64,000 nt of DNA, taken from Flavitalea plasmicola (GTDB taxonomy: Bacteria; Bacteroidota; Bacteroidia; Chitinophagales; Chitinophagaceae). The notes under the pieces were generated by a model. That model saw only the letters and a list, made by a program, of their open reading frames with translations, did no database searches and was not told where the DNA came from. Within the stretch, counting starts at the first letter, position 1. The number at the start of each line of letters is the position of its first letter. Shown here piece by piece: positions 26,105-50,410 of this stretch. The DNA is taken from positions 1-64,000 of the forward strand of contig NZ_JAUOTO010000004.1 in assembly GCF_030546645.1 (NCBI RefSeq). The letters are read 5' to 3'. A program made the position numbers and the translations under genes.

Positions 26105-26143
26105 ACAAAAAACCTGGTAAGAGGGGAAACCTCTTTTACCAGG
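26105..26143 (-). terminator. Terminator of the efflux cluster
   Basis: ACCTGGTAA-GAGG pairs with CCTC-TT-TTACCAGGT. Read on the minus strand, the stem is followed by six T residues. The tolC stop codon (26136-26138) lies within the stem. On the + strand the same hairpin closes the TlpA-like gene, which stops 31 bp before it. It is the clear end of the minus-strand exporter cluster. Confidence 0.85.
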
Positions 26144-27608: not shown

Positions 27609-28277
27609 TTAGATATTGTTGTCGATCCTGCCGTCCAGGAGGTTGATGATCCTGGAACCGTAGGCTGCATTTTTCTCCGAGTGGGTCACTTGTATGATCG
27701 TTACTCCTTCATTGTTCAATTGTTTGAATAGCTCCATGATCTCTTCGCCTTGTTTGGAGTTGAGGTTGCCGGTGGGTTCATCCGCGAGCAGGAGCTTGGG
27801 TTTGCCGATGAGGGCCCGGGCGATGCCCACCAATTGCTGCTGTCCCCCGGACAGCTGGGTGGGGAAAAGGCCTTTTTTTCCTACGATCTGGAACCTGTCG
27901 AGGATATCGGCTACCATGGCCTGTCTTTCGGAGCTTTTGATGTTCTGATAGATGAGGGGCGTTTCGATGTTCTCATAAACCGTGAGCTCATCAATGAGAT
28001 GGTAGGCCTGGAATACGAACCCGATGTACTGCTTGTATAGCTGGGAGCGTTGTTTTTCTTTCAGTGTATGTACGGCCTGGCTCAGGAAATAATACTCACC
28101 TTCGGAGGCGTCGTCCAGCATGCCGATGACGTTGAGCAGGCTGGATTTACCTGAGCCGGAGGGCCCCATGATGGAGACGAACTCCCCTTCCCTGATCTCC
28201 AGGTTGATGTCCTTCAGAATAAAATTAGGCTTACCGCCTACGTTGACCCATTTTGAAATGCGCTTTAGTTCGATCAT
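27609..28277 (-). CDS. MacB/LolD-type ABC transporter ATPase 2
   Basis: A 222-residue soluble ATP-binding subunit for FtsX-type permeases. Walker A is GPSGSGKSS, the Q-loop region [16 protein letters not shown], the signature LSGGQQQ, Walker [11 protein letters not shown], and the H-loop VTHSEKN. Two positions differ from ATPase 1 (47935): the D-loop reads GNLNS instead of GNLDS, and the segment after the signature is [11 protein letters not shown] where an arginine is normal. The Walker B glutamate is intact, so it is probably active. It is separated from the permease upstream by 155 bp carrying its own promoter-like element. Confidence 0.93.
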
Positions 28278-28313: not shown

Positions 28314-28328
28314 TTCAATCATATGCCA
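28314..28328 (-). promoter_or_regulatory. -24/-12-like promoter element upstream of ATPase 2
   Basis: On the minus strand: TGGCATATGATTGAA, 36 bp before the ATPase 2 start codon. It matches the element at 50304-50318 in 11 of 15 positions, including TGGCAT and TTG. It resembles the sigma-54 consensus TGGCAC-N5-TTGC but is one base shorter between the two blocks. Confidence 0.5.
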
Positions 28329-28378
28329 GAATGCTAACTGACTGTAATATAGGTATTTATGCCTAAATGGCCGGGCTA

Positions 28379-28419
28379 ACAGTCCTCTTTCGATACATGG
28401 ACTGTACGATTTCGATACA
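28379..28419 (-). promoter_or_regulatory. Paired direct repeat, putative activator site (copy 2)
   Basis: Two 19-bp copies at a 22-bp period (28379-28397 and 28401-28419), each ending in TTTCGATACA on the + strand and each with an ACWGT block near the start. The same pair occurs upstream of the adaptor gene. The proximal edge of the CGATACA core lies 63 bp from the -24-like block. Probable enhancer for the sigma-54 activator encoded at 50617. Confidence 0.6.
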
Positions 28420-28432
28420 GGTGATTGCCGGG

Positions 28433-30880
28433 TCACTCCGTTCTCAGGCTTTCCACCGGATTGGCATTAGCGGCCCTGATGGTCTGTATGCTGAGGGTTA
28501 GCAGGGCGATCAGCAGCATGGTCAGTCCGCTGAGCGCGTAGGTCCACCAGCTTATCGTCGCCCTGTAAACGAAGCTTTCCATCCATCGATGGGCGCCGTA
28601 CCAGGCGATGGGGACTGCGATGGCGAACGCAATGCAGACCAATTTTACAAAGTCTTTTGATAATAAGGAAACAATTTGTGTCACGGAGGCGCCCAGGACC
28701 TTGCGGACACCTATTTCTTTGGTGCGCAGGCTGGTGGAATAGATGACGAGGCCCAGCAGTCCCAGGCAGCTGATGAAGATGGTGAGACCGGTGGCCCAGC
28801 GCAGGAGGCTGGACATATGTTGTTCGGCGGTATAGAATTTTGCAATGCTCTCATCCAGGAAAGTGTATTCGAAGTCCTCTCCGGGAAAAACTTCTTTATA
28901 TGCCTTTTCTGCGGCGGCAATGGTGGCTTTCCAGCTGGCGCGTCCTGCCGGGCTATTGGGTAGGGCGATGTGGATGCTTTGGTTCAACGCTGCTTTGTTG
29001 AAGACGAAGGCCATGGGCCTGATGGCTTTATGAAAAGATGCCTGGTGAAAATCCTCCATGATGCCAATGATGCGGTCTTTGTTCTTATTCAAGGTCTTGC
29101 CCAGGGCCTGCCGCGGATCTGTAAGGCCCAATATTCCTGCGTAGGTGCGATTGATCACCAGCTGGCGGGCACTATCGGGACAGAGGACGACGTTGTGGCC
29201 AGCCAATAGTTTAAGGCCATACAGGTGCATATAGGCTGTGTCGACAATCATAATCTGCACGTCCGTGCGGATCTCTTTTTTCCCATCCATGTAGGTGATG
29301 ATCTCGGAGTTGACCGAATTTGAAGCGGGCGGGCTTGCGCCCAGGGAGAGCTCGGCGATGCCGGGAATTTTGTGGAGCTTGTTCATCAGCAATGCGCAAT
29401 TCTCCTGCAAATGGGGCGCCGCATAGGGCGTATTGAAGAAAATGATCGCCTCTTTTTTGAATCCCATATCCTTATCCAGGAAGTAATGGATCTGACTGCC
29501 TACGATGAGGGTGCCGATGATAAAGACTTGTGCGATGACGAACTGGAAGGCGGTGAGAGATTGACGGAGGATAGCATTGCGGGTAGAACTCTTACCGGAC
29601 CAGGCCTGGTTTTTCAGTGCTATGACGGGGCTGAAGCGGGACAATACCCGGGCGGGATAAAAGCCGGATAGCAGGCTGACGGTGAGGATCAGGGCTCCGA
29701 GGAACAAGTAGATATGGGGCAGGCTCTTAAGGTTGAAATGGAGGTTTTTCGGAATGAAGTCTGAGAAGAGCTTCATCAGCCAGGGTGTAACGGCCAGGGA
29801 GAGGAGGGTGCTGATCAGGGTGAGAAGGAAGGCTTCGCCGAGGAACTGCAGGACGAGCTGCCGGCGGGAGCTGCCCATGGTCTTGCGGATGCCGATCTCC
29901 TTGGCTCTTTTACCGGCCTGGGCGGTGGCGAGATTGATGAAGTTGATGCTGCCCAGGGTGAGCAGGAAGGCGGCCACTACCAGGAGACCGTATAAGACGG
30001 GTTTGCTGGCCTGCCGCTGTCCGTAGTTGTCATAGGGCCCTGTGAAATGTATATCTGTGAATGGCTGCAGCTTGTGGGCCGCCTTGTTAGCAGTGTCTTT
30101 GGCATCGTCACTGTGTATCTTACGGAGCGTGGCGAGCTGCTGTTCAACCTGGAGGGGAGAGGTCCCTTTTTCCAACCGGACGTAGAATTGGTTGCTGGAG
30201 GTGACGGAGCCCCAGTCGGGGTCGGTCATTCCACTGTTGGCACTGCGTTTTAAAGTGGGGAGCGAGATGAAGACTTTAAAGACGAGGTCCGTATTTTCTT
30301 TTACGTCTTTCACTATACCTGTAACGGTACAGACCAGGGAGTCATCGTAGATGATGGTCTTGCCGATGGCCTGTGAGGGACTGAGGCCGGGAAAATATAT
30401 ATTGGCGCGGTCCTGGCTGAGCACTACATGGTACAGTTGATCAAGGGAAGAGGGTGAGCCTGCCAGCCATTGGTAGTCAGGGAAGACGTCGAAGTAATGA
30501 CTGTCGGCATAGGCGAGATCGTAGACGTGCTTAACAATGACGGGGGCGGCGCCCAATTTGGGAACAGCTGCTTTTGCGCCGATGGCAAAAATGTTGGCGG
30601 AGGCTTCGATCCCGTGCACTTCCTTACGGGCGGCGTCTATAATGGGATAGGGCACACCGGAATTCGGGAAAGTGGAATTGGAGAAGCTCATCATCGTAAC
30701 GACGCGATAGGTATTGTCTTTGTCCTTACGGAATTGTTCGAAGCTAAAATCGTATTGGACGATGAGATAGATGATCAATGCGGCACTGATGCCAATGGAC
30801 AGGCCAAGAACATTGATCAGGGAGGAGACCTTGTTGCGGCGCAGGGTCCGGAAGGCGGTGATCAAATAGTTTATTATCAT
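28433..30880 (-). CDS. Double-FtsX MacB-like ABC permease 8
   Basis: An 815-residue permease, last of eight in the array. A cytosolic helix (NYLITAFRTLRRNK) and first membrane segment (about 20-40) precede a MacB-type periplasmic domain, then three membrane segments, and the arrangement repeats in the second half, so one chain equals a full permease dimer. The two ATPase-coupling motifs are KRAKEIGIRKTMG and LRTKEIGVRKVLG. The C terminus is NPVESLRTE. Substrate unknown. A 155-bp gap with regulatory repeats separates it from ATPase 2. Confidence 0.93.
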   Translation of the reverse strand: MIINYLITAFRTLRRNKVSSLINVLGLSIGISAALIIYLIVQYDFSFEQFRKDKDNTYRVVTMMSFSNSTFPNSGVPYPIIDAARKEVHGIEASANIFAIGAKAAVPKLGAAPVIVKHVYDLAYADSHYFDVFPDYQWLAGSPSSLDQLYHVVLSQDRANIYFPGLSPSQAIGKTIIYDDSLVCTVTGIVKDVKENTDLVFKVFISLPTLKRSANSGMTDPDWGSVTSSNQFYVRLEKGTSPLQVEQQLATLRKIHSDDAKDTANKAAHKLQPFTDIHFTGPYDNYGQRQASKPVLYGLLVVAAFLLTLGSINFINLATAQAGKRAKEIGIRKTMGSSRRQLVLQFLGEAFLLTLISTLLSLAVTPWLMKLFSDFIPKNLHFNLKSLPHIYLFLGALILTVSLLSGFYPARVLSRFSPVIALKNQAWSGKSSTRNAILRQSLTAFQFVIAQVFIIGTLIVGSQIHYFLDKDMGFKKEAIIFFNTPYAAPHLQENCALLMNKLHKIPGIAELSLGASPPASNSVNSEIITYMDGKKEIRTDVQIMIVDTAYMHLYGLKLLAGHNVVLCPDSARQLVINRTYAGILGLTDPRQALGKTLNKNKDRIIGIMEDFHQASFHKAIRPMAFVFNKAALNQSIHIALPNSPAGRASWKATIAAAEKAYKEVFPGEDFEYTFLDESIAKFYTAEQHMSSLLRWATGLTIFISCLGLLGLVIYSTSLRTKEIGVRKVLGASVTQIVSLLSKDFVKLVCIAFAIAVPIAWYGAHRWMESFVYRATISWWTYALSGLTMLLIALLTLSIQTIRAANANPVESLRTE

Positions 30881-30899
30881 GTGACGGCTTGGGTTTTTA

Positions 30900-33245
30900 T
30901 CAGGTGCGCAAGGTTTTGACGGGATTCACCAGCGCCGCCTTCAGGGCCAGCAAGCTGATGACGGACAAGGCGATCAGCAGGAGCACGGATTCGGTGATAA
31001 AAAAGATCCAGACGCTGATGGAGACGCGGTAGGCGAAATTATCCAGCCAGCGGTGCACCAGCCACCAGCTCAGCGGCAGGGCGATGGCCGAGGCAAGGAA
31101 TGTGAGCCGGATAAAGTCTTTCGATACCAGGGAGAGGATATCGGGAACGGTAGCGCCGAGGACTTTACGGATACCGATCTCCCGGGCGCGTCTTTCGATG
31201 TTGAACAGCGTAAGCCCTGTCAGGCCCAGCGTTGCCAGGATGATGGCCAGGATGGTGAAAAAGCCGATGGCATTGCCCAGCAGCTTGTCCTTTGCCGCCA
31301 GCTGCCGGAAGTTGTCATCCAGGAAGCTGATGGCCAGTGGCGCGTCGGGCATGAATTGTTTGCCTGTAGCCTGCAGCCATTCGAGAAATGCGGCGGTATG
31401 ACCGCCCCGGATCCTGATAGCAAGGATATTGCCCTGAGGTGAGTAGCGCAGTATCGCGGGCGCGATCTTTTCGTGGAGGGAATTGAAGTTAAAGTCTTTG
31501 ATCACTCCGATGATGCGTTCGCTGCCATTAAGGGAAGCGCCAATAGGGTTGAAGAGGCCCAGCGCTGCCACGGCGGATTCGTTCAGGATGAGTGAATTGG
31601 TGTCAGTGACCAGGTTTTTAGAAAAGTTCCTTCCGCCTGTGAGGCGAATGCCCATTGTCGTGAGATATGCGTCGTCTACGGGGAAGGTCTGGACTGTCAT
31701 GGCTTCTTTCATGGTAGCGGTGCGGTACATGTTCATCCAGATGCTTTTGCCTGCCGGTGTCCTGTTGCAGAAGCTGGTGCTGACCACCTGTGACTGCTGG
31801 TCGATCAGGCGCCGGAAAGCTTCCTGGTTGGGAAGGTCTTTCAGGTTGTCTACCAGCAATACACCTTCACCCCGGAAGCCTTTATCCTTATGGTTGATGT
31901 ATTGCAGCTGGCTATATACGACGAAGGACGCGAAGACCAGGGCGGCGGCGATGGTGAATTGTACCAGCACGAGGACGTTGCGGACCTTGGGATTGCTCTT
32001 TCCGAGGCTACCCGCCAGTGGTCTCAGGGAGAGGATGGGCTTAAGGGCGGTGAGGTAAAATGCGGGATAGAGGCCTGCGACCAGGCCTACTGCCAGGGAG
32101 AACAGGAGCAGCCATCCATAATGGGCGAGCATCAGGGGGAGGGCGCCTGTCAGAGAGGCGCCGGTGGCATAGTGATAGAGCAAGGCGATGACCCGGATGA
32201 GTCCGCAGGACAGGAGCATGGCCAGCAGGCTGAACAAAAGCGATTCTATGATGATCTGTCCCGCCAGCTGGCGGCGGGAAGCGCCGAAGGTCTTTTTCAC
32301 CCCGAATTCCTTGTTGCGGGTGGAGGAGCGGGCGGTAACCAAGTTGACATAATTGATGATGGCCAGCAATACCAGGAACAGGCCGATGGCGCTGAGCAGC
32401 TTGACCTGGGTGAGGTTGCCGCCCGGGGTAAGTTCCTGTTTGAGGTCGGAGTGAAAATAGATATCCCGGAGCGGCTGGATGATGAATTGCACGTTCATGT
32501 ACGCGTCGGAGGGGCTGATCAGCTTTTTTCTTATCCGGTCCAGCGTGGCTTTTACGCCTGTCAATGAACCGCCTTTATTTAGCTTGACATAATTATAGAC
32601 GGAGGAAGAGGCCCAGACCTGGGGGTAGGCGTCGCGCTGGGCAACGGTCATGGGCAGCAGGACATGGGGGTCGAGGTGCGATCTTTCAAAGTTCTCTTTC
32701 AAAACGGCGACCACTTTGTAAGGCGTATTTTCCTTGCCCACCAGCAGGGTCTTTCCGATGGGGTCTTCATGGCTGAAGAAGCGGCGGGCGTTGGTCTCGG
32801 AGATGATCATTTCTCCGGGGGCCAGCCCTTTTCCGGGGATGGCGCCTGCGACGGTGCCGTAGTCGAAGACCTTGAAAAAGGCAGTGTCGATGTAATAGGG
32901 GTGGATGTCTGTGTAGGCCCTTTCATTGGAGGAGAGCCTTACCGGGACCTCTTCATATGATTTATCGAAAGAAGTGGCATATTGTACGTCCTTACATGCG
33001 CCCTGCAGCAAGTCGCGCAATGGGGCCTGGCTTTTTGCGAAACCGCCCATATTGAAAAAGTCGGTGCCGATGCGGGCGATCTTGTCTGCATCCCGGAACC
33101 CGCTGTCTGTGCTGATCTCTCTCCCGGAGTATACCAATAGAATGAAGGAGGCGGCGATACCTACGGACAGGCCACCCAGGTTGATCAGGGAGAATACGGG
33201 ATATTTCCGGAGATTGCGTAGTGCGGGTTTGAATAGCGTGATCAT
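30900..33245 (-). CDS. Double-FtsX MacB-like ABC permease 7
   Basis: The shortest member (781 residues), with the same two-half plan: N-terminal helix (LFKPALRNLRKYP), membrane segment, periplasmic MacB-like domain, three membrane segments, then again. It differs in the first coupling loop: RNKEFGVKKTFGASRRQL replaces the usual KE(I/V)GIRK(V/I)LGA. The second (RRAREIGIRKVLGA) is standard. If real coupling depends on this loop, its first half may contact the ATPase differently. It lies 19 bp upstream of permease 8. Confidence 0.92.
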   Translation of the reverse strand: MITLFKPALRNLRKYPVFSLINLGGLSVGIAASFILLVYSGREISTDSGFRDADKIARIGTDFFNMGGFAKSQAPLRDLLQGACKDVQYATSFDKSYEEVPVRLSSNERAYTDIHPYYIDTAFFKVFDYGTVAGAIPGKGLAPGEMIISETNARRFFSHEDPIGKTLLVGKENTPYKVVAVLKENFERSHLDPHVLLPMTVAQRDAYPQVWASSSVYNYVKLNKGGSLTGVKATLDRIRKKLISPSDAYMNVQFIIQPLRDIYFHSDLKQELTPGGNLTQVKLLSAIGLFLVLLAIINYVNLVTARSSTRNKEFGVKKTFGASRRQLAGQIIIESLLFSLLAMLLSCGLIRVIALLYHYATGASLTGALPLMLAHYGWLLLFSLAVGLVAGLYPAFYLTALKPILSLRPLAGSLGKSNPKVRNVLVLVQFTIAAALVFASFVVYSQLQYINHKDKGFRGEGVLLVDNLKDLPNQEAFRRLIDQQSQVVSTSFCNRTPAGKSIWMNMYRTATMKEAMTVQTFPVDDAYLTTMGIRLTGGRNFSKNLVTDTNSLILNESAVAALGLFNPIGASLNGSERIIGVIKDFNFNSLHEKIAPAILRYSPQGNILAIRIRGGHTAAFLEWLQATGKQFMPDAPLAISFLDDNFRQLAAKDKLLGNAIGFFTILAIILATLGLTGLTLFNIERRAREIGIRKVLGATVPDILSLVSKDFIRLTFLASAIALPLSWWLVHRWLDNFAYRVSISVWIFFITESVLLLIALSVISLLALKAALVNPVKTLRT

Positions 33246-33299
33246 AATCTTTCCTTTGAATGGTTGTACAGGGCCCGAAGGCCACTGCGGTAAAACTAA

Positions 33300-35690
33300 T
33301 TATTCAATTCGTAAATTCTTCACCGGATTGGCCCTGGCGGCGCCCAGGGACTGGCTGCTGACCGTCAGCAGCGCGATGAGGATATCCAGTCCACCCGCAA
33401 CCGCGAATACCCAGGCATTCAGGGGAATATGATAAGCGAAATCCTGCAACCATTTGCTCATTGCCCACCAGGCGATGGGAGTGGCGATGAGGACTGATAG
33501 CAGCACAAGCCGGATGAAATCGCGGGACAGCAGGGACATGATATCCGTGACAGTGGCGCCCAACACTTTGCGGATGCCTATTTCCTTTACCCGCTGGCGT
33601 GCGGTGAAAGCGGCCAGGCCGAAAAGGCCGAAACAGGATATGAGGATAGCGATGACGGAAAACAGCAGGATCAGGCTGGATATCTTGCTATCCGCCTTAT
33701 AGAGGCTATCGAACTGTTCGTCAAGGAAGGAGTAATCGAAGGGTTTGTCCGGCGCATAGTTTTGCCAGATCCTGCGTGCGGCGGCCAATGCCGCGGTGGT
33801 CTTGCCGGGATCCGTTCGTATGAAGAAAGCTGCCCGCCAGCGTTCGTTATTGAGGATCACGAGCGGTTTTATCTTTTGATGAAGGCTGGCGAAATGAAAA
33901 TCTTTCACGACACCGATGATCTTCCCCGTATCGCCCTGGAAGGCGAAGCGCTGACCCAGTACGGGCTTGCGGATATTGAACTCGCCCACGGCCGTCTCAT
34001 TGAGGATAAAATTCTTCTGATCCGTGGCATTCAGGGGATCGTACCAGCGGCCCTGCTGCATCTGAAGGTGAAGGACCTTCAGATAGTCCTCGTCGGCGGA
34101 AAGCTGGAAGACGGTGGGTACGAAGTTCTTATCGCGACCATCCCAGTCGGCGGAGCCGGAGTTGCTGCTGTGCAGATCCACGAGGGACTGGCTGGCAACG
34201 GTGACCCCGGAGATGCCTGTCTGATTGGTCAGCTGTTGTTTCACGCCGGCGATGAGGGAGTGGAACTCCTTGTCTTCTTTTCTAGCGTAGAGGGTAAAGG
34301 GCAGGCGGAAATAGAAGACCTGGCTGCGGTCGTAGCCGGCATCGATATGCTGGATATAGCTCAGCTGCCGTTGAATGATCAGGGTGCCGGCGATGAGGAT
34401 GATGGAAAAGGTAAACTGGAGAACGAACAGTCCCTTCCGGAGGTAGACGTCTTTGAAATTCAGTATGGTGGATCCTTTCAGGACATTGAGCGGGCGGAAG
34501 GAGGAGAGGATCAGCGCGGGGTAGATACCATTGAGGACGGTGGCCGCGAGTAAGGTGATGCCCAGTATCTGCCAGGTAGCGGAGGAAGCCAGCGGCATGG
34601 GAAAATTCTTATCTGTCAGCTCCCGGAAGAGGGGCATCAGCTGCCAAACGAGAAGGACGGTGATGCACAGTGAGATAGCGCTCACCAATACGGATTCGAG
34701 CATGAACTGGAGGAAGAGGCTTTTCTTACCGGCGCCGACGATCTTGCGGATGCCTACTTCCTTAGCCCGGACGCTGGCCATGGCCGTGGTGATATTGACA
34801 TAGTTGATGCAGGCGATGACCAGCAGGAAAATGCCGAGGACGCTGAAGATATAAACCGTTTTTTTATTGACGTGCTCAATTGTTCCGCCGGAGGTGAGAT
34901 CGGTTTCGAAGTGGATGTCCCTGAGCGGGGTCAGGGATATGGCATTCCCGACTTCTTTTTTACCGGCAGCCATGATCCGGTTGGCACCGGCGGCGACTTT
35001 TGCCGGACTGGCTGTGGGCCGGAGTTTAAGGAAGGTCTGGTAGTTAAAATTATTATAGGTTTCTTCGTTCTTCCTGGTTTTGGGATCGGCGAGCAGGGCA
35101 TCCAGGGGCATGAGCATATCGAAGCGGAAACTGGAGTTCGCCGGGACATCCCTGACAACGGCCGCGATGCGGTAGTCGATGGTGTCGATGCGTATGGTGC
35201 GGCCGATGGGGTCTTTGTCGCCGAAATATTTCTTTGCCCTGGTCTGGGTGAGGAGGACGCTGAAGGGATGGCTGAAGAAGTTGGCGGGGTTACCTTCGAT
35301 AAAATCGTAATGGAACATCCCGAACCAGCCGCTGTCGACATACGCCGTATGTTTTTCGATGAACAGCTCGTTGCCGAGGCGGAAAGTGGTGCTGTAGGAT
35401 GGCTGGAGGCATGCGACGGCTTCCAGTTCGGGGACTTCCCGGGACATGGCAGATGCCAGTGGCAGCGGGGTGGTCTCCCATGTCCATTTGGCTTTGGTGA
35501 GGTGGGCGGTGAGGCGATAGATGCGGGCTGCGTCCGGATGATAGCCATCGTAAGACATTTCATTCTGCACCCAGAGAAAGATGAGTACGGCGGCCGTCAT
35601 GCCAGCGGAGAGGCCGATGATATTGAGGATGCCGACAGGCCTGTTCTTCATCAGGGTTCGCCAGGCTATTTTCAGGTGGTTCTTTATCAC
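33300..35690 (-). CDS. Double-FtsX MacB-like ABC permease 6
   Basis: A 796-residue inner-membrane permease with two FtsX halves. N-terminal WRTLMKNRPVGILN and the first membrane segment (LSAGMTAAVLIFLW) are followed by a periplasmic domain of about 240 residues, membrane segments near 280-410, a seventh-strand-like second periplasmic domain, and the final three segments. Coupling loops are RAKEVGIRKIVGAG and RVKEIGIRKVLGAT. It ends GAARANPVKNLRIE. The gap to the next permease is 54 bp, the second largest between permeases in the array. Confidence 0.92.
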   Translation of the reverse strand: MIKNHLKIAWRTLMKNRPVGILNIIGLSAGMTAAVLIFLWVQNEMSYDGYHPDAARIYRLTAHLTKAKWTWETTPLPLASAMSREVPELEAVACLQPSYSTTFRLGNELFIEKHTAYVDSGWFGMFHYDFIEGNPANFFSHPFSVLLTQTRAKKYFGDKDPIGRTIRIDTIDYRIAAVVRDVPANSSFRFDMLMPLDALLADPKTRKNEETYNNFNYQTFLKLRPTASPAKVAAGANRIMAAGKKEVGNAISLTPLRDIHFETDLTSGGTIEHVNKKTVYIFSVLGIFLLVIACINYVNITTAMASVRAKEVGIRKIVGAGKKSLFLQFMLESVLVSAISLCITVLLVWQLMPLFRELTDKNFPMPLASSATWQILGITLLAATVLNGIYPALILSSFRPLNVLKGSTILNFKDVYLRKGLFVLQFTFSIILIAGTLIIQRQLSYIQHIDAGYDRSQVFYFRLPFTLYARKEDKEFHSLIAGVKQQLTNQTGISGVTVASQSLVDLHSSNSGSADWDGRDKNFVPTVFQLSADEDYLKVLHLQMQQGRWYDPLNATDQKNFILNETAVGEFNIRKPVLGQRFAFQGDTGKIIGVVKDFHFASLHQKIKPLVILNNERWRAAFFIRTDPGKTTAALAAARRIWQNYAPDKPFDYSFLDEQFDSLYKADSKISSLILLFSVIAILISCFGLFGLAAFTARQRVKEIGIRKVLGATVTDIMSLLSRDFIRLVLLSVLIATPIAWWAMSKWLQDFAYHIPLNAWVFAVAGGLDILIALLTVSSQSLGAARANPVKNLRIE

Positions 35691-35714
35691 AAGAATAGTT
35701 TATTTAAGATTAGA

Positions 35715-38126: not shown

Positions 38127-38162
38127 GGTCTAAGTTTATACCGATTCGTTGTTGCCGTCTGA

Positions 38163-40589: not shown

Positions 40590-40604
40590 GGTTGTATTTT
40601 AAAT

Positions 40605-43010: not shown

Positions 43011-43086
43011 GTGATTATTCTGATTTGAGGTTTTTGCCGGATCAGTAAGTGCTGACTGTACGGACCTATAGCCGACAGTTTTGGGT

Positions 43087-45477
43087 TTATTCGGACCTCA
43101 AGCTTCTCACCGGATTGGCCAGTGCGGAGCGGAGGGTCCTGTATCCAATTGTCAAGGTTGCAATGACGACAGTTGAGAAAAGGGCCATTAAAAAGACCTG
43201 TGCGTTCAAGGGTATCCTGTAAACGAAATCCTGCAGCCACCGGTGCATGAACCATCCGCCGACGGGCGCGGCCACCAAAAATGCCAGGACCAGCAGCCGG
43301 AGGAATTCTTTGCCGAAGATCCAGAGGATATCGGGTATGCCTGCGCCCAGCACCTTACGCACGCCGATCTCTTTTGTTTTTTGCATCGCCATGAAGGAAA
43401 CCATGCCGTACAGTCCGAGACAGCCTATCAGGATGGCGATGGCTGCAAATATTTCTATCAACGTCAGCAGGACCGTCTCTGACTGGTAGAAGTCGGCGAT
43501 GCTATCATCCATGAACTGGTAAGTATAGTTGTATTCCGGGTAGGTGTTGTTCCATAATTTTTCGAAGGCGGGCAGGAGGCCTCCCGCTCTTGCCAGGTTG
43601 AGCTTGACGGCGCAGACGGCATATGATCTGTAGTCCTGGGAGATGCAGACCGGGGAAATTTCTCCCTTGAAGGAGTTGTTATGAAAATCTTTTAGAACGC
43701 CGACGACCGTGCCGCGGGCTCCTTGCTCAATGGCAATGGACTTACCGATGATGTCCTGAGGGGCTTTAAGGTTCAGCTTATGGACCAGCGTCTCATTGAC
43801 GAGAAATTCATGGGCTGAGTCGGATCGAAAGAAGTTCCTGCCGGCGATGAGGGTAAGGCCGAATGCGGAGACGTATTGGTCATCACCATTTTTAACATTG
43901 ATATTAAAGGGCTCGGCTTTTGGTCTGTTGTCGAAGGAGAAGCCATCGAGCTCATTGTCGCTGGTGGCCGGGGGGGTGAAGCATAGGGAAGTTTTTTCCA
44001 CACCTGTCATTGCTGACAGGCTATTGCGCAGGTGGTCCATTTTGGTCCTGTCGGGTGCAGGGACGGGCAATAGTACGATGCCTTCCTTGTTGAAACCGAG
44101 GTCGGTCTTACGCGAATAGTGGATCTGGCCGGCTATGACGATGGTGGTGATGATAAGCAGCTGTGAAATGGCGAATTGACCGGTGACCAGGATCCTGCGG
44201 ACGGAGAAACCGCCGATGTGCTGCTGATTTAATTTTCCTTTCAGCGCAAGCACGGGTTGGAAGCCGGCGAGGATGAGACCGGGGTAGGAGCCGGCGAGGA
44301 AGGTGACGCTCGTCAGCAGGAGGACGAGGAAGATGACCAGCCAGGTGTCTCCGATGAATGGGATGGAGAGGCGCATGTCAAGCAACCGGTTGACAAAGGG
44401 AAGGGATTGCTGTGCCAGGCAGAATGCCAATATGGTTGCGAACAGCGCGATGAGGGCTGTTTCGGCGATGAATTGCCAGAAGAGCTGCATCCGCATGCCT
44501 CCCAGGACCTTTCTTATGCCCACTTCTTTGGAGCGGGTGAGGGCTTGTGCCGTGGCGAGGTTGACAAAATTCATGCAGGCGGTGGCGATGAGGAAGAGGC
44601 CGATGAGCGCAAGCGCCCAGATGTATTTTTTTTCTACTGCTCCAGAATAGTTTGGATTGAAGTGGATGTCAGACAGGGGTTGAAGCCTGAAGCGGAAGAC
44701 ATTGTGTCCCCTGGTGTCTGCGTAGTATTTGTCCATCAGCGCAGGGAAGAGCTTTTCAACGGCGGCGGGGCTGGTCCCTTTTTTCAGCAGGAGAAAGGTC
44801 TGCATGTTGTTATTGATGCCGGACCACCTGTTGGGGCCGGCGAGAGATGAGTCAAAGTCTTTCAGGTTGACATAGGATAAATAGATCTCCTGGCTACGGT
44901 CTGTGTTGACGGGGATGTCCCTGAGGATACCTGTGACGGTGAAGTTCATGCTGTTCCCGATGCGGAGGGACTGTCCCATGGGATCTTGTCCGGGGAAGTA
45001 TTTATGGGCCAGCTTCTCTGTAATAAAGGCTGTATTGGGGTTGGCCAGCGCGGACCTGTCGCCTTTTACCAGGGGGAAGCTGAAAATTTGGAAGAATTCG
45101 GGCTCTGCGAGGGCGAGTCCCTCTTGCTCTACAAATTTATGGATGTCTTTCCCGGTGTTAACGGTGATGAGAGGGCTCCCGAATACTCTTACACAGGCTA
45201 TTTTGTCGGCGAAGGAATAATCATTGCGGAGGGCTTTGCCCAATGGGGCCGGGGTGCCGGAGGTATAGCTAAGGTTGTCGTGGTGTATCTCGGTGACTAC
45301 GCGGTAGGTGTTGTTCGTGTCCGGATGAAAGTCTTCGAAGCTGAGGTGATAGCGGACGAGGGTAAAGATGAGGATGCTGCAGGTGATGCCCAGGGTTAGG
45401 CCTGCCACATTGATAAAGGCGTAGGACTTGTTGCGTTGAAGGTGCCGCCACGCTATTTTGAAATAGTTCTTTATCAT
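43087..45477 (-). CDS. Double-FtsX MacB-like ABC permease 2
   Basis: A 796-residue permease. ATG at 45477 is chosen because it gives the shared N terminus (IKNYFKIAWRHLQRNKS); the frame is open upstream to 45609 but that extension lies over the end of permease 1. First membrane segment VAGLTLGITCSILIFTLV; coupling loops TRSKEVGIRKVLGGMRMQL and QKTKEIGVRKVLGAG. C terminus ANPVRSLRSE. It lies 14 bp after permease 1. Confidence 0.93.
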   Translation of the reverse strand: MIKNYFKIAWRHLQRNKSYAFINVAGLTLGITCSILIFTLVRYHLSFEDFHPDTNNTYRVVTEIHHDNLSYTSGTPAPLGKALRNDYSFADKIACVRVFGSPLITVNTGKDIHKFVEQEGLALAEPEFFQIFSFPLVKGDRSALANPNTAFITEKLAHKYFPGQDPMGQSLRIGNSMNFTVTGILRDIPVNTDRSQEIYLSYVNLKDFDSSLAGPNRWSGINNNMQTFLLLKKGTSPAAVEKLFPALMDKYYADTRGHNVFRFRLQPLSDIHFNPNYSGAVEKKYIWALALIGLFLIATACMNFVNLATAQALTRSKEVGIRKVLGGMRMQLFWQFIAETALIALFATILAFCLAQQSLPFVNRLLDMRLSIPFIGDTWLVIFLVLLLTSVTFLAGSYPGLILAGFQPVLALKGKLNQQHIGGFSVRRILVTGQFAISQLLIITTIVIAGQIHYSRKTDLGFNKEGIVLLPVPAPDRTKMDHLRNSLSAMTGVEKTSLCFTPPATSDNELDGFSFDNRPKAEPFNINVKNGDDQYVSAFGLTLIAGRNFFRSDSAHEFLVNETLVHKLNLKAPQDIIGKSIAIEQGARGTVVGVLKDFHNNSFKGEISPVCISQDYRSYAVCAVKLNLARAGGLLPAFEKLWNNTYPEYNYTYQFMDDSIADFYQSETVLLTLIEIFAAIAILIGCLGLYGMVSFMAMQKTKEIGVRKVLGAGIPDILWIFGKEFLRLLVLAFLVAAPVGGWFMHRWLQDFVYRIPLNAQVFLMALFSTVVIATLTIGYRTLRSALANPVRSLRSE

Positions 45478-45491
45478 GTGTAGACAGGTTT

Positions 45492-47924
45492 TTATTCTGT
45501 TCGCAGGCTTTTCACTGGCGGCGACATAGCGGCCCGGATGGCCTGGAAGCCGATGGTGATCAGGGCAACGGCCGAAGCCAGGATGCCTGCCACCAGAAAG
45601 ATCCACCATTGGATGGAGATCCTGTAGGCAAAATCGCTGAGCCAGTTATGCATAGCGTACCATGCAACGGGGAAGGCGATGAGGGCGCCGATGGCGACCA
45701 GCTTCAGGAAATCTTTCGACAGCAGGGAGACGATGCTGGTGGTGCTTGCGCCCAGCACTTTCCGGACGCCGATCTCTTTGATGCGTTGGGATATGGCGAA
45801 GGCGGAGAGTCCCAGCAGCCCCAGGCAGGCTATGAAAATGGCGATACCGGAGAAGGAGGTGAACAGCGTCCCTTGTCTTTGTTCCGAACGATAGAGCTGT
45901 TGGAATTTCTCGTCCAGGAAGGTGTATTCGAAGGGAGTCTGGGGAAGGTATTTTTTCCAGGTCTTTTCCAGGTGGGCGAGTCCGCCGTTGATATTGTTGC
46001 CGGCGATCTTGACGGAGAGCCAGTTCAGGTGGAACCCTGCGTTATTATTGTCGGGGGCCATGACGAGGACCAGGGGTACGATCTGCTGGTGCATGGATTC
46101 GAAGTGGAAGTCGCCCAGTACGCCTACGATCTTACCTTTTATACCGCCGTATTCAAAGTTATGTCCTACGGCCTGTTCGGGGCGTTGTACGCCCAGTGCG
46201 CGGGTAGCTGCCGCATTCAGTATGAAGGAGCTTGAGTCGGTGGCGTAGTCGCGGGAAAAATTCCTTCCTGCGATGACGGACATACCATACGTGGGGACGA
46301 AGTCAAAATCGGCCGTAACGTATTTGATATCTGCACTGACAGGCCGGAGCGAGTCGCCGCTCTCCGTAGAGGCGCCTTGTTCGTCCAGCAGCCGGCCACT
46401 GGGAATACGGGATGACCGGCCTGCGTCCCTGATATAAGTGCTGCTGCGTAATTCGTTGCGGAAGGCGTTGTAGGTGTTGCCGAGGCTTCTGTCATATCCA
46501 ATGGTGACGATCCTTTCCTTATCGAAGCCCAGGGATTTATCCTGCATAAAATGCAATTGCTGGAATACGATGGCTGTGCAGATGATGAGGATGATGGAGA
46601 TGGAGAACTGCGTTACCACGAGCACTTTCCGGAAAGAGATGCTGCCATTGCCTGCCTTGAAGAGGCCTTTCAGCACTTGAACGGGCTTGAAGGAAGACAT
46701 GAACAGCGCAGGGTAGATACCAGAAAGGATGCCAACCACGAAGGGGGTAAGCAGGAGCGGTATGATCACCTTGAGGGTGAAGAGGCTACGGATGGAGAGG
46801 CTTTGATCAATGACGCCGTTCAGCGCCGGCAGGGTTAGCCAGGTGACGCCGATGGCCAGAACGGTAGCCAGGGCGGTGATCACCACGGATTCGCTGAGGA
46901 ACTGGATAATGATCTCGTTGCGCTGGGCGCCGGAAGTTTTGCGAATGCCGATCTCTTTGGCGCGCAGCGCTGAGCGGGCCGTAGAGAGGTTCATATAATT
47001 GATGCAGGCAATGAGTAAGATAAAAAGTGCGATGGCGCTGAAAATGTAGACGCGTTTGATATCTCCATTATCTTCCAATTCTGCATCAAGATGGGAGGTG
47101 AGGTGGATATCTGTCAGCCGTTGTATGTATAGTTTGGTCCAGCTGGAGGGTTTGGAATCGCCCGGCTGACCCATATACTTATCCAGGAAGGCGGGGAAGC
47201 GCGCTTCGATGTTCTTCACGGGATAGTTCGGAGGCAGCAGCAAGTAGGTGAAGAAGGAATTGTTTCCCCAATTGGTCTGCAGGGCTCTTTCTCCATAGAT
47301 GGCGGTGTCCTTCAGGGTGGCGAAGGACAGCATCATCCGTGGATGCAGATGGGCGGCATCGGGGAAGGGTTTAAAGATCCCTGTTACTTTAAAGTTATAC
47401 TGGTTATTGAGCCGGATCACCTTGTTTATCGGGTCGTCATTGCCGAAGTATCTTTTGGCGATGTCCTCGGTAAGGATGACGGAGTAGGGGTCGGTCAGGG
47501 CGGTGCGCGGGTTGCCTTTCAGGAGGGTCACGTCGAAGATGCCGAAGAGGTTCTCGTCGGCATAGTACAGGTCCTTTTCATTGAATATCTTTTCTTCATA
47601 ACGTGTGGGGACGGTGCCGACGGGAAATATGCGGGTGACCTTCTCGATATCGGGGAATTCGTTCTGCAGCAGAGGTCCGAAAGGAGGCGCCACTGAGCCC
47701 AGGTGAAGGGAGGTGATGCCTTCTTTATTATTAAAGCTGCGGGTGACGCGGTAGATGCGATCGGCCTTGCTGTTGTATTTGTCATAGCTGACCTCATGGA
47801 TAATGTAGGTCACGATGAGCAGGCAGCAGGAGATGCCGACCGTAAGTCCGAACAGGTTAATAAAGGAAATAACCTTATGTTTCGCCATGTTACGCAGGGC
47901 GATCTTGAGATAGTTCCTCAGCAT
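45492..47924 (-). CDS. Double-FtsX MacB-like ABC permease 1
   Basis: First of the eight permeases (810 residues), 10 bp after ATPase 1 and therefore its most likely direct partner. N terminus LRNYLKIALRNMAKHKVIS, first membrane segment LTVGISCCLLIVTYII. Coupling loops: LRAKEIGIRKTSGAQRNEI and QRIKEIGVRKVLGAS. Two MacB-type periplasmic domains lie between the membrane blocks. C terminus SPPVKSLRTE, lacking the ANP seen in most of the others. Confidence 0.93.
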   Translation of the reverse strand: MLRNYLKIALRNMAKHKVISFINLFGLTVGISCCLLIVTYIIHEVSYDKYNSKADRIYRVTRSFNNKEGITSLHLGSVAPPFGPLLQNEFPDIEKVTRIFPVGTVPTRYEEKIFNEKDLYYADENLFGIFDVTLLKGNPRTALTDPYSVILTEDIAKRYFGNDDPINKVIRLNNQYNFKVTGIFKPFPDAAHLHPRMMLSFATLKDTAIYGERALQTNWGNNSFFTYLLLPPNYPVKNIEARFPAFLDKYMGQPGDSKPSSWTKLYIQRLTDIHLTSHLDAELEDNGDIKRVYIFSAIALFILLIACINYMNLSTARSALRAKEIGIRKTSGAQRNEIIIQFLSESVVITALATVLAIGVTWLTLPALNGVIDQSLSIRSLFTLKVIIPLLLTPFVVGILSGIYPALFMSSFKPVQVLKGLFKAGNGSISFRKVLVVTQFSISIILIICTAIVFQQLHFMQDKSLGFDKERIVTIGYDRSLGNTYNAFRNELRSSTYIRDAGRSSRIPSGRLLDEQGASTESGDSLRPVSADIKYVTADFDFVPTYGMSVIAGRNFSRDYATDSSSFILNAAATRALGVQRPEQAVGHNFEYGGIKGKIVGVLGDFHFESMHQQIVPLVLVMAPDNNNAGFHLNWLSVKIAGNNINGGLAHLEKTWKKYLPQTPFEYTFLDEKFQQLYRSEQRQGTLFTSFSGIAIFIACLGLLGLSAFAISQRIKEIGVRKVLGASTTSIVSLLSKDFLKLVAIGALIAFPVAWYAMHNWLSDFAYRISIQWWIFLVAGILASAVALITIGFQAIRAAMSPPVKSLRTE

Positions 47925-47934
47925 AAGAACGATT

Positions 47935-48612
47935 TTAGACGAGTATGTTCTCCGTAACCGTTTGTCCGTCCAGCATGCGAATGATGCGATGGCTGTAGCG
48001 GGAGTCGTGTTCGGAGTGTGTTACCATGATGATCGTGGTGCCCTGTTCATTCAGATCGGTGAGGAGCTGCATCACTTCATTACCGTTGGACGAGTCCAGG
48101 TTACCAGTAGGTTCATCGGCCAGGATCAGCTTGGGGTTATTGACGACTGCGCGGGCTACGGCTACACGTTGTTGCTGACCGCCGGACAGCTGCTGAGGGT
48201 AGTGATTACGACGGTGCATGATCTGCATTTTATCCAGGACGGCTTCTACGCGTTGTTTGCGTTCGGGACCTTTCACGCCAAGATAGATCAGGGGCAGCTC
48301 GACATTTTCGAACACGGTGAGCTCGTCGATGAGGTTGAAGCTCTGGAATACGAAGCCGATGTTACGTTTGCGAAGATCGGCCCTCTTGCGTTCGTTGAAA
48401 TGCGCCACTTCAGTGCCATTGAAGATAAAGCTGCCGCCATCAGGATCATCGAGCAGGCCCAGGATATTAAGGAGTGTGGATTTCCCGCAGCCGGAGGGGC
48501 CCATAACAGATACGAACTCGCCTTCCTTGACTTCAAAGCTGAGGTGATTCAACGCGACGGTTTCCACTTCTTCAGTACGGTATACTTTTTGGAGGTCACT
48601 GATCTTGATCAT
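47935..48612 (-). CDS. MacB/LolD-type ABC transporter ATPase 1
   Basis: A 225-residue ATP-binding subunit with all hallmarks: Walker A GPSGCGKST, Q-loop IGFVFQSFNLIDELT, signature LSGGQQQRVAVARA, Walker [14 protein letters not shown] and H-loop VTHSEHD. It precedes the permease array by 10 bp and has a complete consensus, unlike ATPase 2. I infer that it energises most or all of the eight permeases, since only two ATPases exist for eight full-length permeases. Confidence 0.95.
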   Translation of the reverse strand: MIKISDLQKVYRTEEVETVALNHLSFEVKEGEFVSVMGPSGCGKSTLLNILGLLDDPDGGSFIFNGTEVAHFNERKRADLRKRNIGFVFQSFNLIDELTVFENVELPLIYLGVKGPERKQRVEAVLDKMQIMHRRNHYPQQLSGGQQQRVAVARAVVNNPKLILADEPTGNLDSSNGNEVMQLLTDLNEQGTTIIMVTHSEHDSRYSHRIIRMLDGQTVTENILV

Positions 48613-48670
48613 GTTTTTAGCGTTTAAGTGAATAGTGTAGTTGTAGTTGAGTCGTTTGTTGTATTATAAA

Positions 48671-48871
48671 TTATATGTATAGGAATTTAACGAACTGAAA
48701 GGTAGAAAATTCCTGCTTTTCTTCAGATATCTCTTTTGACAGCTCTTTTGCACGGTGACCTTTATCACATTGACCGGAGTCACGGATGGGGTGGGCACAT
48801 TCATTCCTGGATGAGGCGAAAGCGCTCATGCAGAGTATGAGGACCAGCGTGTAAAGGAGTTTGAGTCGCAT
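48671..48871 (-). CDS. Small putative secreted peptide in the efflux cluster
   Basis: A 66-residue frame between the adaptor gene (58 bp) and ATPase 1 (58 bp). The N terminus is a convincing signal peptide (RLKLLYTLVLILCMSAFASS). The mature part is short and charged with two cysteines 11 residues apart (ECAHPIRDSGQC) and Lys/Glu-rich downstream. I recognise no family. Position within the operon is the main support. It could be a small periplasmic accessory factor, an exported substrate, or a chance frame. Confidence 0.5.
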   Translation of the reverse strand: MRLKLLYTLVLILCMSAFASSRNECAHPIRDSGQCDKGHRAKELSKEISEEKQEFSTFQFVKFLYI

Positions 48872-48929
48872 GATGTTGTTTTTTGCTTTGTTAGCTATTA
48901 TGGACGCGGCGGGCCGTCCGAATGTTACA

Positions 48930-50186
48930 TTATTTTTTCAATACCAGTTCCTGCATGTTTCCATAGTTCTCGTAGCTGGAGGTGACGACTTTGTCTCCAG
49001 GCTTGAGGCCGGAAAGAACTTCATAGTAGTCGGTGTTCTGGCGTCCCAGCTGAATATCCACTCTATAGGCAGTCTTGCCGTCTTCGCTGACCTTGAAGAT
49101 CCAGTTACCACCTGTCTGCTGATAGAAGCCGCCTTTGGGGACCAGAATGGCGGTGGTCTCGTCGCTCAGCGCCAGCGTGATCTGCAGCGTCTGCCCTTTG
49201 CGGATGCCTTTGGGAACCTCTCCCACGAAGGCCATATCCACCTGGAAGCGGCCATTAGTGACCTGGGTATAGACTTTGATGATCTTGAGCTTATAGGCCT
49301 TTTCGGCAAAGCTGAAAGTTCCTGTCAGTCCGGTGAAAACCCGGGAGATATAATGTTCGTCCACGTCGGACAGTCTCACCTTGAATCCGTCCAGCACGTC
49401 CAGCTGGCCGAGGGAGGCACCGGGGGTCTTGGATTGGCCGATCTCCGCGTCCAGGGAGGTAAGCTGGCCGTCCTGGGGGGCGCGGATGATGAGTCCGTCG
49501 ACCTTTCTCTTAAGGATCTCCATGGTATTTTGAGCGCGTTGGAAAGATTCCTTGTCCTGTTGTTCCTGTGCGCTTCGGGAAACGGTGTCATTATGCAGGA
49601 TGCTTTGGGCCAGGGTTCTTTTTTGCAGGTAATAGTTATAGTTATTCTCTGCCTGTTTGAATTCCTGGGAGCCGATGACCTTCTGCGCATATAGTTTTTT
49701 ATCCAATGTATAAACGCGTTCGGCTTCTTTGAACAGGCTTTCCACGTCGGCCATTTGGGTCAACTTGTTAACTGTATTCTGGTCGGCATTGACCCGGCTC
49801 AGCTGTGTCTGGGCCAACATGGAAGAGACATTGGTCATCTGGTTGGAAAGGTTCAGCTCCAGGTCGGTGTTGGACAATTTCAGGATGGGGTCGCCCTTTT
49901 TCAGGATGGCGCCGTCCTCGACGAATTTTTGTTCCACCCGGCCCCCATCGGGGGTTACCAGGTAGATCGTTGTCAGGGGGAGTACGGTGCCGTTCTGGGG
50001 TATGGATTCCTGGAAGTTGCCTTTCGTGATATCGCTAATCGTAATGCGCTCTGTATCAACGTTTAATTTAGATTTTCCGGAGGTGAAATAAAAACTTCCC
50101 GCGATCAATAGAACTAAAGCTGAGATCCCGCCAATGGTCATCAGGCGTTTTGTCGTCCATGTTTTCTTTGGAATTACTCTGTCCAC
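48930..50186 (-). CDS. HlyD/MacA-family periplasmic adaptor
   Basis: A 418-residue membrane-fusion protein linking inner-membrane permeases to TolC. An N-terminal membrane anchor (LMTIGGISALVLLIAGSFYF) is followed by a first half-lipoyl segment (VEQKFVEDGAILKKGDPILKL), a long alpha-helical hairpin (about 100-235), the second half-lipoyl part (GLIIRAPQDGQL), a beta-barrel domain, and a C-terminal membrane-proximal domain (VLSGLKPGDKVVTSSYENYG). It is the first gene of the minus-strand cluster, 120 bp after the -24/-12-like element, and divergent from the sigma-54 activator. Confidence 0.94.
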   Translation of the reverse strand: MDRVIPKKTWTTKRLMTIGGISALVLLIAGSFYFTSGKSKLNVDTERITISDITKGNFQESIPQNGTVLPLTTIYLVTPDGGRVEQKFVEDGAILKKGDPILKLSNTDLELNLSNQMTNVSSMLAQTQLSRVNADQNTVNKLTQMADVESLFKEAERVYTLDKKLYAQKVIGSQEFKQAENNYNYYLQKRTLAQSILHNDTVSRSAQEQQDKESFQRAQNTMEILKRKVDGLIIRAPQDGQLTSLDAEIGQSKTPGASLGQLDVLDGFKVRLSDVDEHYISRVFTGLTGTFSFAEKAYKLKIIKVYTQVTNGRFQVDMAFVGEVPKGIRKGQTLQITLALSDETTAILVPKGGFYQQTGGNWIFKVSEDGKTAYRVDIQLGRQNTDYYEVLSGLKPGDKVVTSSYENYGNMQELVLKK

Positions 50187-50303
50187 GATAAAGAATTTAA
50201 TTTTTTAAGTTTTCCCTTTTAGTTGCTCGTTTTTTTAAAAAGCCACCCAGCATAGAAATGCCAGGCGGTCTACTACACATGAGAAAATTCTTATCGTATC
50301 CAT

Positions 50304-50318
50304 AACAAACACATGCCA
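50304..50318 (-). promoter_or_regulatory. -24/-12-like promoter element upstream of the adaptor gene
   Basis: On the minus strand: TGGCATGTGTTTGTT. It is similar to the element before ATPase 2 in sequence and in its distance (64 bp) from the paired repeat. Leader length to the HlyD start would be about 110 bp. The spacing between GG and TTG is one base shorter than the sigma-54 consensus, so the assignment to sigma-54 rests on the neighbouring activator gene and on the duplicated geometry. Confidence 0.5.
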
Positions 50319-50369
50319 GAAATGAAATGCCTATGATTTACAGGCTATTAGCCTGGATTCGACCGGTTT

Positions 50370-50410
50370 ATAGTTCACTTTCGATACAGGAACTGTCCGC
50401 TTTTGATACA
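50370..50410 (-). promoter_or_regulatory. Paired direct repeat, putative activator site (copy 1)
   Basis: Two 19-bp copies at a 22-bp period (50370-50388 and 50392-50410), ending TTTCGATACA and TTTTGATACA on the + strand. About two helical turns separate them, so two activator dimers would bind the same face. The 430-bp region 50187-50616 otherwise holds no gene; it must also contain the + strand promoter of the regulator gene, which I could not identify. Confidence 0.6.

Follow-up and report, generated by a model that had tools for sequence, protein, structure and literature searches.

Why does one exporter gene cluster carry the same regulatory module twice, and what else does that module control? 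The question arises from 64,000 nt of DNA of Flavitalea plasmicola, a member of the Chitinophagaceae (RefSeq assembly GCF_030546645.1, contig NZ_JAUOTO010000004.1, positions 1 to 64,000; hereafter the window). Here, a pair of repeats followed by a promoter-like element occurs both upstream of a periplasmic adaptor gene (module 1, at 50 kb) and ahead of an ATPase–TolC gene pair (module 2, at 28 kb). Taken as a whole, the modules are, with high probability, best explained as enhancer–promoter units of a single sigma-54 regulon. On comparative grounds, this regulon would join the exporter cluster of the window (the hub) to permease genes scattered over the genome (the orphan permeases).

Architecture of the module

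Each module consists of two 17-bp units on the minus strand (consensus TGTATCRAAANCGNACA) whose starts lie 22 bp apart, followed about 91 bp downstream by CTGGCAY-N4-TTG. The units end at 28397 and 28419 in the 28-kb copy and at 50388 and 50410 in the 50-kb copy, with a period of 22 bp in both. Direct reading confirmed the repeat pairs, promoter elements and period that a first-pass annotation of the window had placed here, and corrected one detail: at 50 kb, TTTTGATACA and not TTTCGATACA forms the end of the outer unit. Counted to the T of TGGCA, TGGCAT-N4-TTG lies 91 bp from the start of the outer unit in the 28-kb copy and 92 bp from it in the 50-kb copy, so the geometry of the two modules agrees to one base. 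Because the ends of the units are imperfect mirror images (TGT...ACA), each apparent direct repeat is probably better seen as one dyad for a dimer.

In module 1, the putative outer (distal) activator dyad (TGTATCAAAAGCGGACA, 50394–50410) is an exact match and nearly invariant in the 64 loci described below, and the putative inner (proximal) dyad, 22 bp away (50372–50388), is degenerate. The predicted promoter of the adaptor unit (TGGCATGTGTTTG, 50304–50318) is of the sigma-54 −24/−12 type, one base shorter than the classical form. Module 2 reads in the same way, with a candidate outer dyad (TGTATCGAAATCGTACA, 28403–28419) also recovered in a genome-wide dyad search, an inner dyad (28381–28397) and a sigma-54-type promoter for the ATPase 2–TolC unit (TGGCATATGATTG, 28314–28328). 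All of these elements lie on the minus strand, and TGGCATATGATTG (28316–28328) and TGGCATGTGTTTG (50306–50318) are the sole zero-mismatch matches to TGGCATNTGNTTG in the window.

A middle element lies between the dyads and the −24 box. In adaptor modules it reads TAA-N4-YTG-NN-AATCA (YTGNNAATCA at 50334–50343, minus strand, in module 1) and keeps its distance from the dyads where the distance to −24 shifts by one base; it is weak in the 28-kb copy. At the same place, the modules of orphan permeases have approximately TTGATTWTCAA-N4-TT, which we take to be close to the consensus of integration host factor (IHF). Given this IHF-site-like placement and build, the middle element may be a bend site for an IHF/HU-like protein. 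An extra TTCGTA word stands 41 bp past the start of the outer dyad in 22 of the 64 loci (L044, L047, L048, L056, L069 and others), at exactly equal offset in 18 of the 22.

Conservation in related genomes

We fetched 80 orthologs of the regulator encoded beside module 1 (76–96% identity, mostly Chitinophagaceae). Thirteen of their loci were set aside for want of a divergent adaptor (the gene is absent, has moved or would lie beyond the contig end), leaving 68 loci (67 relatives and the window). The module stands ahead of the adaptor and beside the sigma-54 response regulator in 64 of the 68. The other four (L077, L089, L101 and L103) fell short of the module definition and were left out of the 64-locus logo; L101 and L103 do have TGGCA close to a dyad. 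The outer dyad lies 89–93 bp from TGGCA in 63 loci and 99 bp in one. Scanning 1.47 Mb with a position-specific scoring matrix returned 76 modules of at least 25 bits, most of them training sites, and none in the reversed sequence.

The first-pass annotation had argued that agreement in sequence, spacing and orientation made chance unlikely, and wider searches support this. With zero mismatches, the dyad pair occurs in the 8.73-Mb Flavitalea genome at the two window copies only; with up to three mismatches it occurs five times, equal to the reversed control (5). A family-wide search for the outer dyad plus TGGCAY at a fixed distance found this exact pattern in 64 of the 195 genomes, which represent 38 of 101 genera, and its reversed control in 0 of 195. 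A chance origin of the dyad pair was rejected on these grounds. In a phylum-wide sample of 296 genomes, four carry the exact pattern, one of them outside the family. An adaptor ortholog is present in 63 of the 64 family genomes with the pattern (Fisher p 9e-27), and 55 of 78 exact modules lie less than 400 bp upstream of one.

Outside the Flavitalea genome, 22 modules lie away from an adaptor, and 18 of them precede an ATPase, permease or adaptor gene of the system. ATPase 2 and TolC follow directly in seven (L185, L194–L199), as in the window. A permease comes first in nine (L182, L184, L186–L189, L191–L193), and ATPase 2 comes after it in L186 and L193, and later still in L187; ATPase 1 follows the module in L201 and the adaptor in L181. 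Since second modules elsewhere precede ATPase 2–TolC or permeases, the two-unit layout of the window recurs in relatives.

The same dyad before scattered permeases

Two co-regulated units, as first annotated, are nevertheless far too few. Allowing one mismatch, the single dyad occurs 29 times in the Flavitalea genome and twice in the reversed control. All 27 copies outside the window lie 147–267 bp upstream of the start of a MacB_PCD N-domain, and so of a MacB/FtsX permease, 25 of them in the same orientation. The list of N-domains, compiled by hand from a genome search with second-domain hits left out, has 88 entries, of which 81 fall in open frames with 780 codons or more. Together, the 500 bp ahead of each of the 88 genes make up about 0.5% of the genome, which puts 27 of 27 far beyond chance. 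The annotation had held that wide occurrence of the pair away from sigma-54 activators would speak against its reading. Formally, the single dyad does occur in this way, but since the gene that follows belongs to the same permease family in every case, these dyads extend the regulon and do not refute it.

Of the 27 orphan modules, 19 have NGGCAY 68–71 bp from the dyad, and the rest of the range from 20 to 160 bp adds just seven occurrences; this preference-free count is used in place of an earlier choice of −24 elements that favoured 69.5 bp and biased the distance tally. The orphan dyad sits where adaptor modules have their weaker inner dyad, and many orphan modules retain a CGGACA-like half-site 22 bp further out. 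The scoring model and its 24-row logo cover the modules other than L314, L319 and L328. Leave-one-out scoring over all 27 recovered 25 with more than 26 bits, and in 24 of them it pointed to the same dyad; L314 and L328 failed. Among the 47 other duplicated permeases outside the window, 17 scored above the 99% level of 987 control scans and 13 above the highest control. Judged by these scores, about 40 (27 + 13) of the 74 duplicated permeases outside the window probably carry the code.

The dyad-bearing scattered permeases are mostly single genes. A search of 20 stretches (5.5–17 kb), which cover the surroundings of 21 of the 27, found nothing that matched either hub ATPase at E 1e-5. One of the 20 also holds a second adaptor paralog, which is 60% identical to the first and adjoins a permease (G000:C15:388748-389998, L402).

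Promoter spacing and the sigma factor

The −24/−12 spacing had been annotated as one base short, perhaps as a lineage variant or a sign of another sigma factor. For the adaptor and ATPase promoters the short spacing stands. All 64 adaptor promoters have GG, 54 have TT at positions 11–12 and 35 have G at position 13 (G13). In a greedily thinned set of 39, TT lies at 11–12 in 31 and at 12–13 only in none. The sister promoters of the Flavitalea genome, those with NGGCAY at 68–71 bp, have the classical G14 in 17 of 19 and G13 in 9 of 19, and the 24 modelled orphan rows have G14 in 22, versus 1 of the 64 adaptor promoters (Fisher p 2e-17).

As a variant of the whole lineage, short spacing was rejected, given these 17 of 19 sister promoters and the classical GG-N10-GC sites found elsewhere in the family. 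TTTGGCACR-N3/4-TTGCW gave 60 hits in the 195 family genomes (27 in the control), 35 with classical spacing and 25 one base shorter. The hits are classical in 9 of 9 cases in genome G174, 6 of 6 in G097 and 7 of 8 in G140, and these sets look like real classical sigma-54 regulons. Each of the three genomes has 6 to 9 sites of the type TTTGGCACGATTTTTGCT, some of those in G140 at contig ends. A strict scan of 30 genomes (YTGGCACG-N2-5-TTGCW) gave hits that, among those examined, were mostly intragenic, which is uninformative alone.

More distant orthologs point to the direction of change. In other families of the phylum, the regulator is 51–63% identical and the adaptor is again often divergent from the regulator–kinase pair. 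We used only the 21 distant loci with an adjacent adaptor and accepted any base before GG. In families f16 (two loci), f23 (ten, four of them nearly identical) and f26 (one), T12T13G14, the classical spacing, is present in 13 of 13 intergenic regions, and dyad pairs can be seen by eye. Among class-mates, f8 (two loci) is classical, f9 (one) has the classical TT without G14, f5 (two) is short and the f3 pair is ambiguous. Since the orthologous promoters of f16, f23 and f26 are classical, part of the class probably has a derived form of this promoter, one base shorter, and another sigma factor is not needed to explain it. The variant loop GAFTDA of the regulator was also rejected as a cause, because orthologs with classical promoters likewise have -TDA loops. 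For Flavobacterium psychrophilum, passages of PMC9723704 report sigma-54 promoters with typical −24/−12 elements and mapped starts. With the module conserved and classical −24/−12 promoters at distant orthologous loci, comparative evidence lends good support to the annotated enhancer plus −24/−12 promoter, read here as an enhancer pair and a predicted sigma-54 promoter under the neighbouring regulator.

Weighing the alternatives

The dyads might be bound by the regulator while the promoter is read by the main Bacteroidota sigma factor, with TGGC as an accessory contact. Positions 6–13 (YRNNKTTG) do resemble the −7 box TAnnTTTG described for that factor in passages of PMC9723704, and many loci come near it (e.g. 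TATGTTTG in L037, TATTGTTG in others). However, position 6 is C (TGGCAC) in 25 of the 64 loci and cannot be part of TA, the GG never varies, like that of sigma-54 −24 elements, the promoters of f23 orthologs mostly read TTGGCAC-N5-TTG, and the regulator is of the sigma-54 activator type, all of which leaves this explanation very improbable. Still less credit goes to an altered RpoN, in which one of two paralogs would have come to prefer the shortened promoter. The genome does have two rpoN genes, and its adaptor-unit promoters are consistently one base short; yet dependence on a second RpoN was rejected, as single-rpoN genomes carry the module (G007, G016, G028, G055). One of them, G016, also has a classical-spacing site before a short open reading frame (ORF). 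RpoN1, the only paralog that the alignment covers, aligns to solved sigma-54 with no gap between the helix-turn-helix (HTH) and the RpoN box.

It is also unlikely, if less so than either of these, that the orphan dyads are bound by a different regulator with a similar site, so that cluster and scattered permeases are separately controlled. Candidates exist, with 25 other PF00158 matches in the genome (20 above 160 bits), and the strong dyad lies about 70 bp from −24 in orphan modules versus about 91 bp in adaptor modules. Against this, the dyad consensus, middle element and overall distances coincide, and full adaptor-type modules precede permeases in other genomes. In the 80 hub-centred related loci, 75 of 78 dyads precede genes of the system, and two of the remaining three lie on contigs that break off short of the adaptor.

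The preferred reading, one sigma-54 regulon under the neighbouring regulator, has its own difficulties. In adaptor-unit promoters, TT comes a base too early, no more than 35 of 64 have G13 and one has the classical G14; in the single f29 intergenic region examined, no −24/−12-like site was found. Of 93 adaptor-bearing genomes, 30 have no exact module. We fetched 17 adaptor upstream regions without one, from 16 of these 30 genomes and from G065, which has its exact match elsewhere: ten hold a relaxed module above 30 bits, six mainly a dyad and one neither (their reversed sequences gave no module). The second adaptor paralog of the Flavitalea genome has no detectable module in its scanned upstream region, and four of the 22 non-adaptor modules (L180, L183, L190, L200) are followed by no system gene. 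Two of the 27 dyads before permeases face the opposite way, and eight of these 27 permeases lack NGGCAY at 68–71 bp. Of the 74 duplicated permeases outside the window, 34 show no module that exceeds every control. The GAFTDA loop is unique to this regulator among the 21 activator loci of its genome, whereas most of the others have GAFTGA or GSFTGA (13, two of which overlap; one has GSFTSA, one GSFPGA, and five gave no match to the search expression). For VfmH, passages of PMC10714721 treat it as an open question whether GAFTDA explains the missing sigma-54 interaction; a GAFTDA regulator is listed with targets in Desulfovibrio in passages of PMC4641369.

The regulator and the exporter cluster

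The sigma-54 activator gene that had been annotated as divergent from module 1 is indeed there (50617–51981, plus strand). It encodes an NtrC-type response regulator with receiver, Sigma54_activat (PF00158, E 2.4e-64) and Fis-type HTH (HTH_8) domains, the presumed binder of the dyads. Despite the variant loop, its sigma-54 AAA+ domain is recognised, and the loop ends in -TDA in 78 of the 80 orthologs. The histidine kinase gene that follows (52113–53453, plus strand; HATPase_c) is the presumed partner, with a homolog after the regulator in 76 of 80 related loci. By eye, the N terminus of the kinase shows two hydrophobic stretches separated by almost no loop, a layout that presumably resembles intramembrane-sensing kinases of peptide-exporter systems. 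The genome's two rpoN genes lie on contigs C16 and C12 of G000 (L112, L113); both products keep the RpoN box ARRTVAKYRE, and the rest clearly differs by eye. Across the family, rpoN is present in 193 of 195 genomes.

The exporter genes lie on the minus strand. Unit 1 begins with an HlyD-type periplasmic adaptor (membrane fusion protein; 48930–50186), followed by a 66-aa ORF with a signal-peptide-like start (48671–48871) and ATP-binding cassette (ABC) ATPase 1 (47935–48612). Eight ORFs of 781–840 aa, duplicated MacB/FtsX-type permeases, occupy 28433–47924. The first and last were tested with Pfam and match MacB_PCD plus FtsX, three were tested with NCBIfam, and seven were found in the MacB_PCD genome search. 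Behind module 2 come ABC ATPase 2 (27609–28277) and a TolC-type outer membrane channel (26136–27596). Both ATPases are separate proteins, of 222 and 225 aa. Module 2 had been said to lie in the only gap longer than 100 bp within the cluster, which is correct if the 66-aa ORF is taken as a gene; if it is not, adaptor and ATPase 1 are separated by a longer gap, of 317 bp.

An ORF of at least 45 aa with a Met start is present between adaptor and ATPase 1 in 54 of 58 loci (the window and relatives with a gap of 150–900 nt), compared with 18 of 58 on the antisense strand and 11% of shuffles. By eye, its build is mostly alike, with a signal peptide, a Cys-containing middle and a hydrophobic end. A Pfam search with the 66-aa ORF of the window gave no match. 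The small peptide may be a cargo, a signal or an accessory peptide.

Relation to known systems

A receiver–AAA+–Fis HTH activator, a tandem dyad enhancer upstream of −24/−12 and an IHF-like site between them are general features of NtrC-type two-component sigma-54 regulons (NtrC, AtoC, ZraR), and the present system, with its putative enhancer and −24/−12-like promoter, is apparently alike in all three. It differs in having one exporter hub and dozens of scattered permeases as its apparent targets, and in its near-rigid enhancer–promoter distance, its GAFTDA loop and the shortened −12 spacing at hub promoters. MacAB-TolC tripartite exporters combine an adaptor, MacB_PCD/FtsX permeases, an ABC ATPase and TolC, all of which stand here in one cluster. 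In MacAB-TolC, however, the ATPase is fused to MacB, whereas here permease and ATPase are separate genes. The cluster also has two ATPases and eight permease-size ORFs, and the genome encodes many more permeases at other places. The permeases align over their full length with ADOP (TIGR03434), and the three tested score 280, 277 and 285 bits, below its cut-off of 622.3. The adaptor, ATPase 2 and the permeases match DarC, DarD and DarB of the darobactin exporter DarBCD, likewise below the NCBIfam cut-offs (DarC 155 of 450, DarD 244 of 375, DarB 127–166 of 700 bits).

The closest account in the open-licence literature searched is PMC12316311, passages of which predict sigma-54 promoters before COG0577 permeases in Bacteroidia, with the consensus TGGCAC-N5-7-TTGCT, and call this link between sigma-54 and the permease family first evidence. 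The general link is already in print; its consensus would not cover the N4 hub promoters described here, and those passages mention neither this activator nor its binding site, nor any hub with orphan permeases. In the same literature, as far as its passages go, no description of this regulator or module was found, nor of the enhancer code or the hub-and-spoke layout, and nothing relevant to sigma-54 spacing turned up.

A proposed hub with many spokes

We propose the following mechanism. Once phosphorylated, the regulator would bind two dyads 22 bp apart, at about −116 to −77, and an IHF/HU-like bend at the middle element would bring it to sigma-54 RNA polymerase on the TGGCAY/TTG promoter, where its AAA+ domain would open the promoter complex. 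Module 1 would drive the adaptor, the small secreted peptide ORF, ATPase 1 and the permeases, and module 2 would drive ATPase 2–TolC. A dyad mostly about 70 bp from −24 would drive at least 27 scattered permease genes. One regulator would thus switch on the window cluster together with at least 27, and probably about 40, orphan permeases, so that the hub machine and its alternative permeases are made together.

Because the orphan permeases appear to be co-regulated with a cluster that supplies ATPases, an adaptor and TolC, we suggest that they may use these hub parts. In such a hub-and-spoke exporter, about 40 interchangeable orphan permeases would share one adaptor, two ATPases and one TolC, with hub and spokes kept in step by one kinase–regulator pair through a single enhancer code. 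We offer this tentatively and rate its chances at slightly below even.

For studies of sigma-54, the system would provide a closely matched set of promoters with the −12 G at either of two positions and apparently one activator, useful for asking how strict sigma-54 spacing is. For the exporters, the enhancer code ties 27, and probably about 40, permeases to one cluster with the missing parts, and makes the question of their partners directly testable. If true, the hub-and-spoke reading would tell where the orphan permeases get their ATPase.

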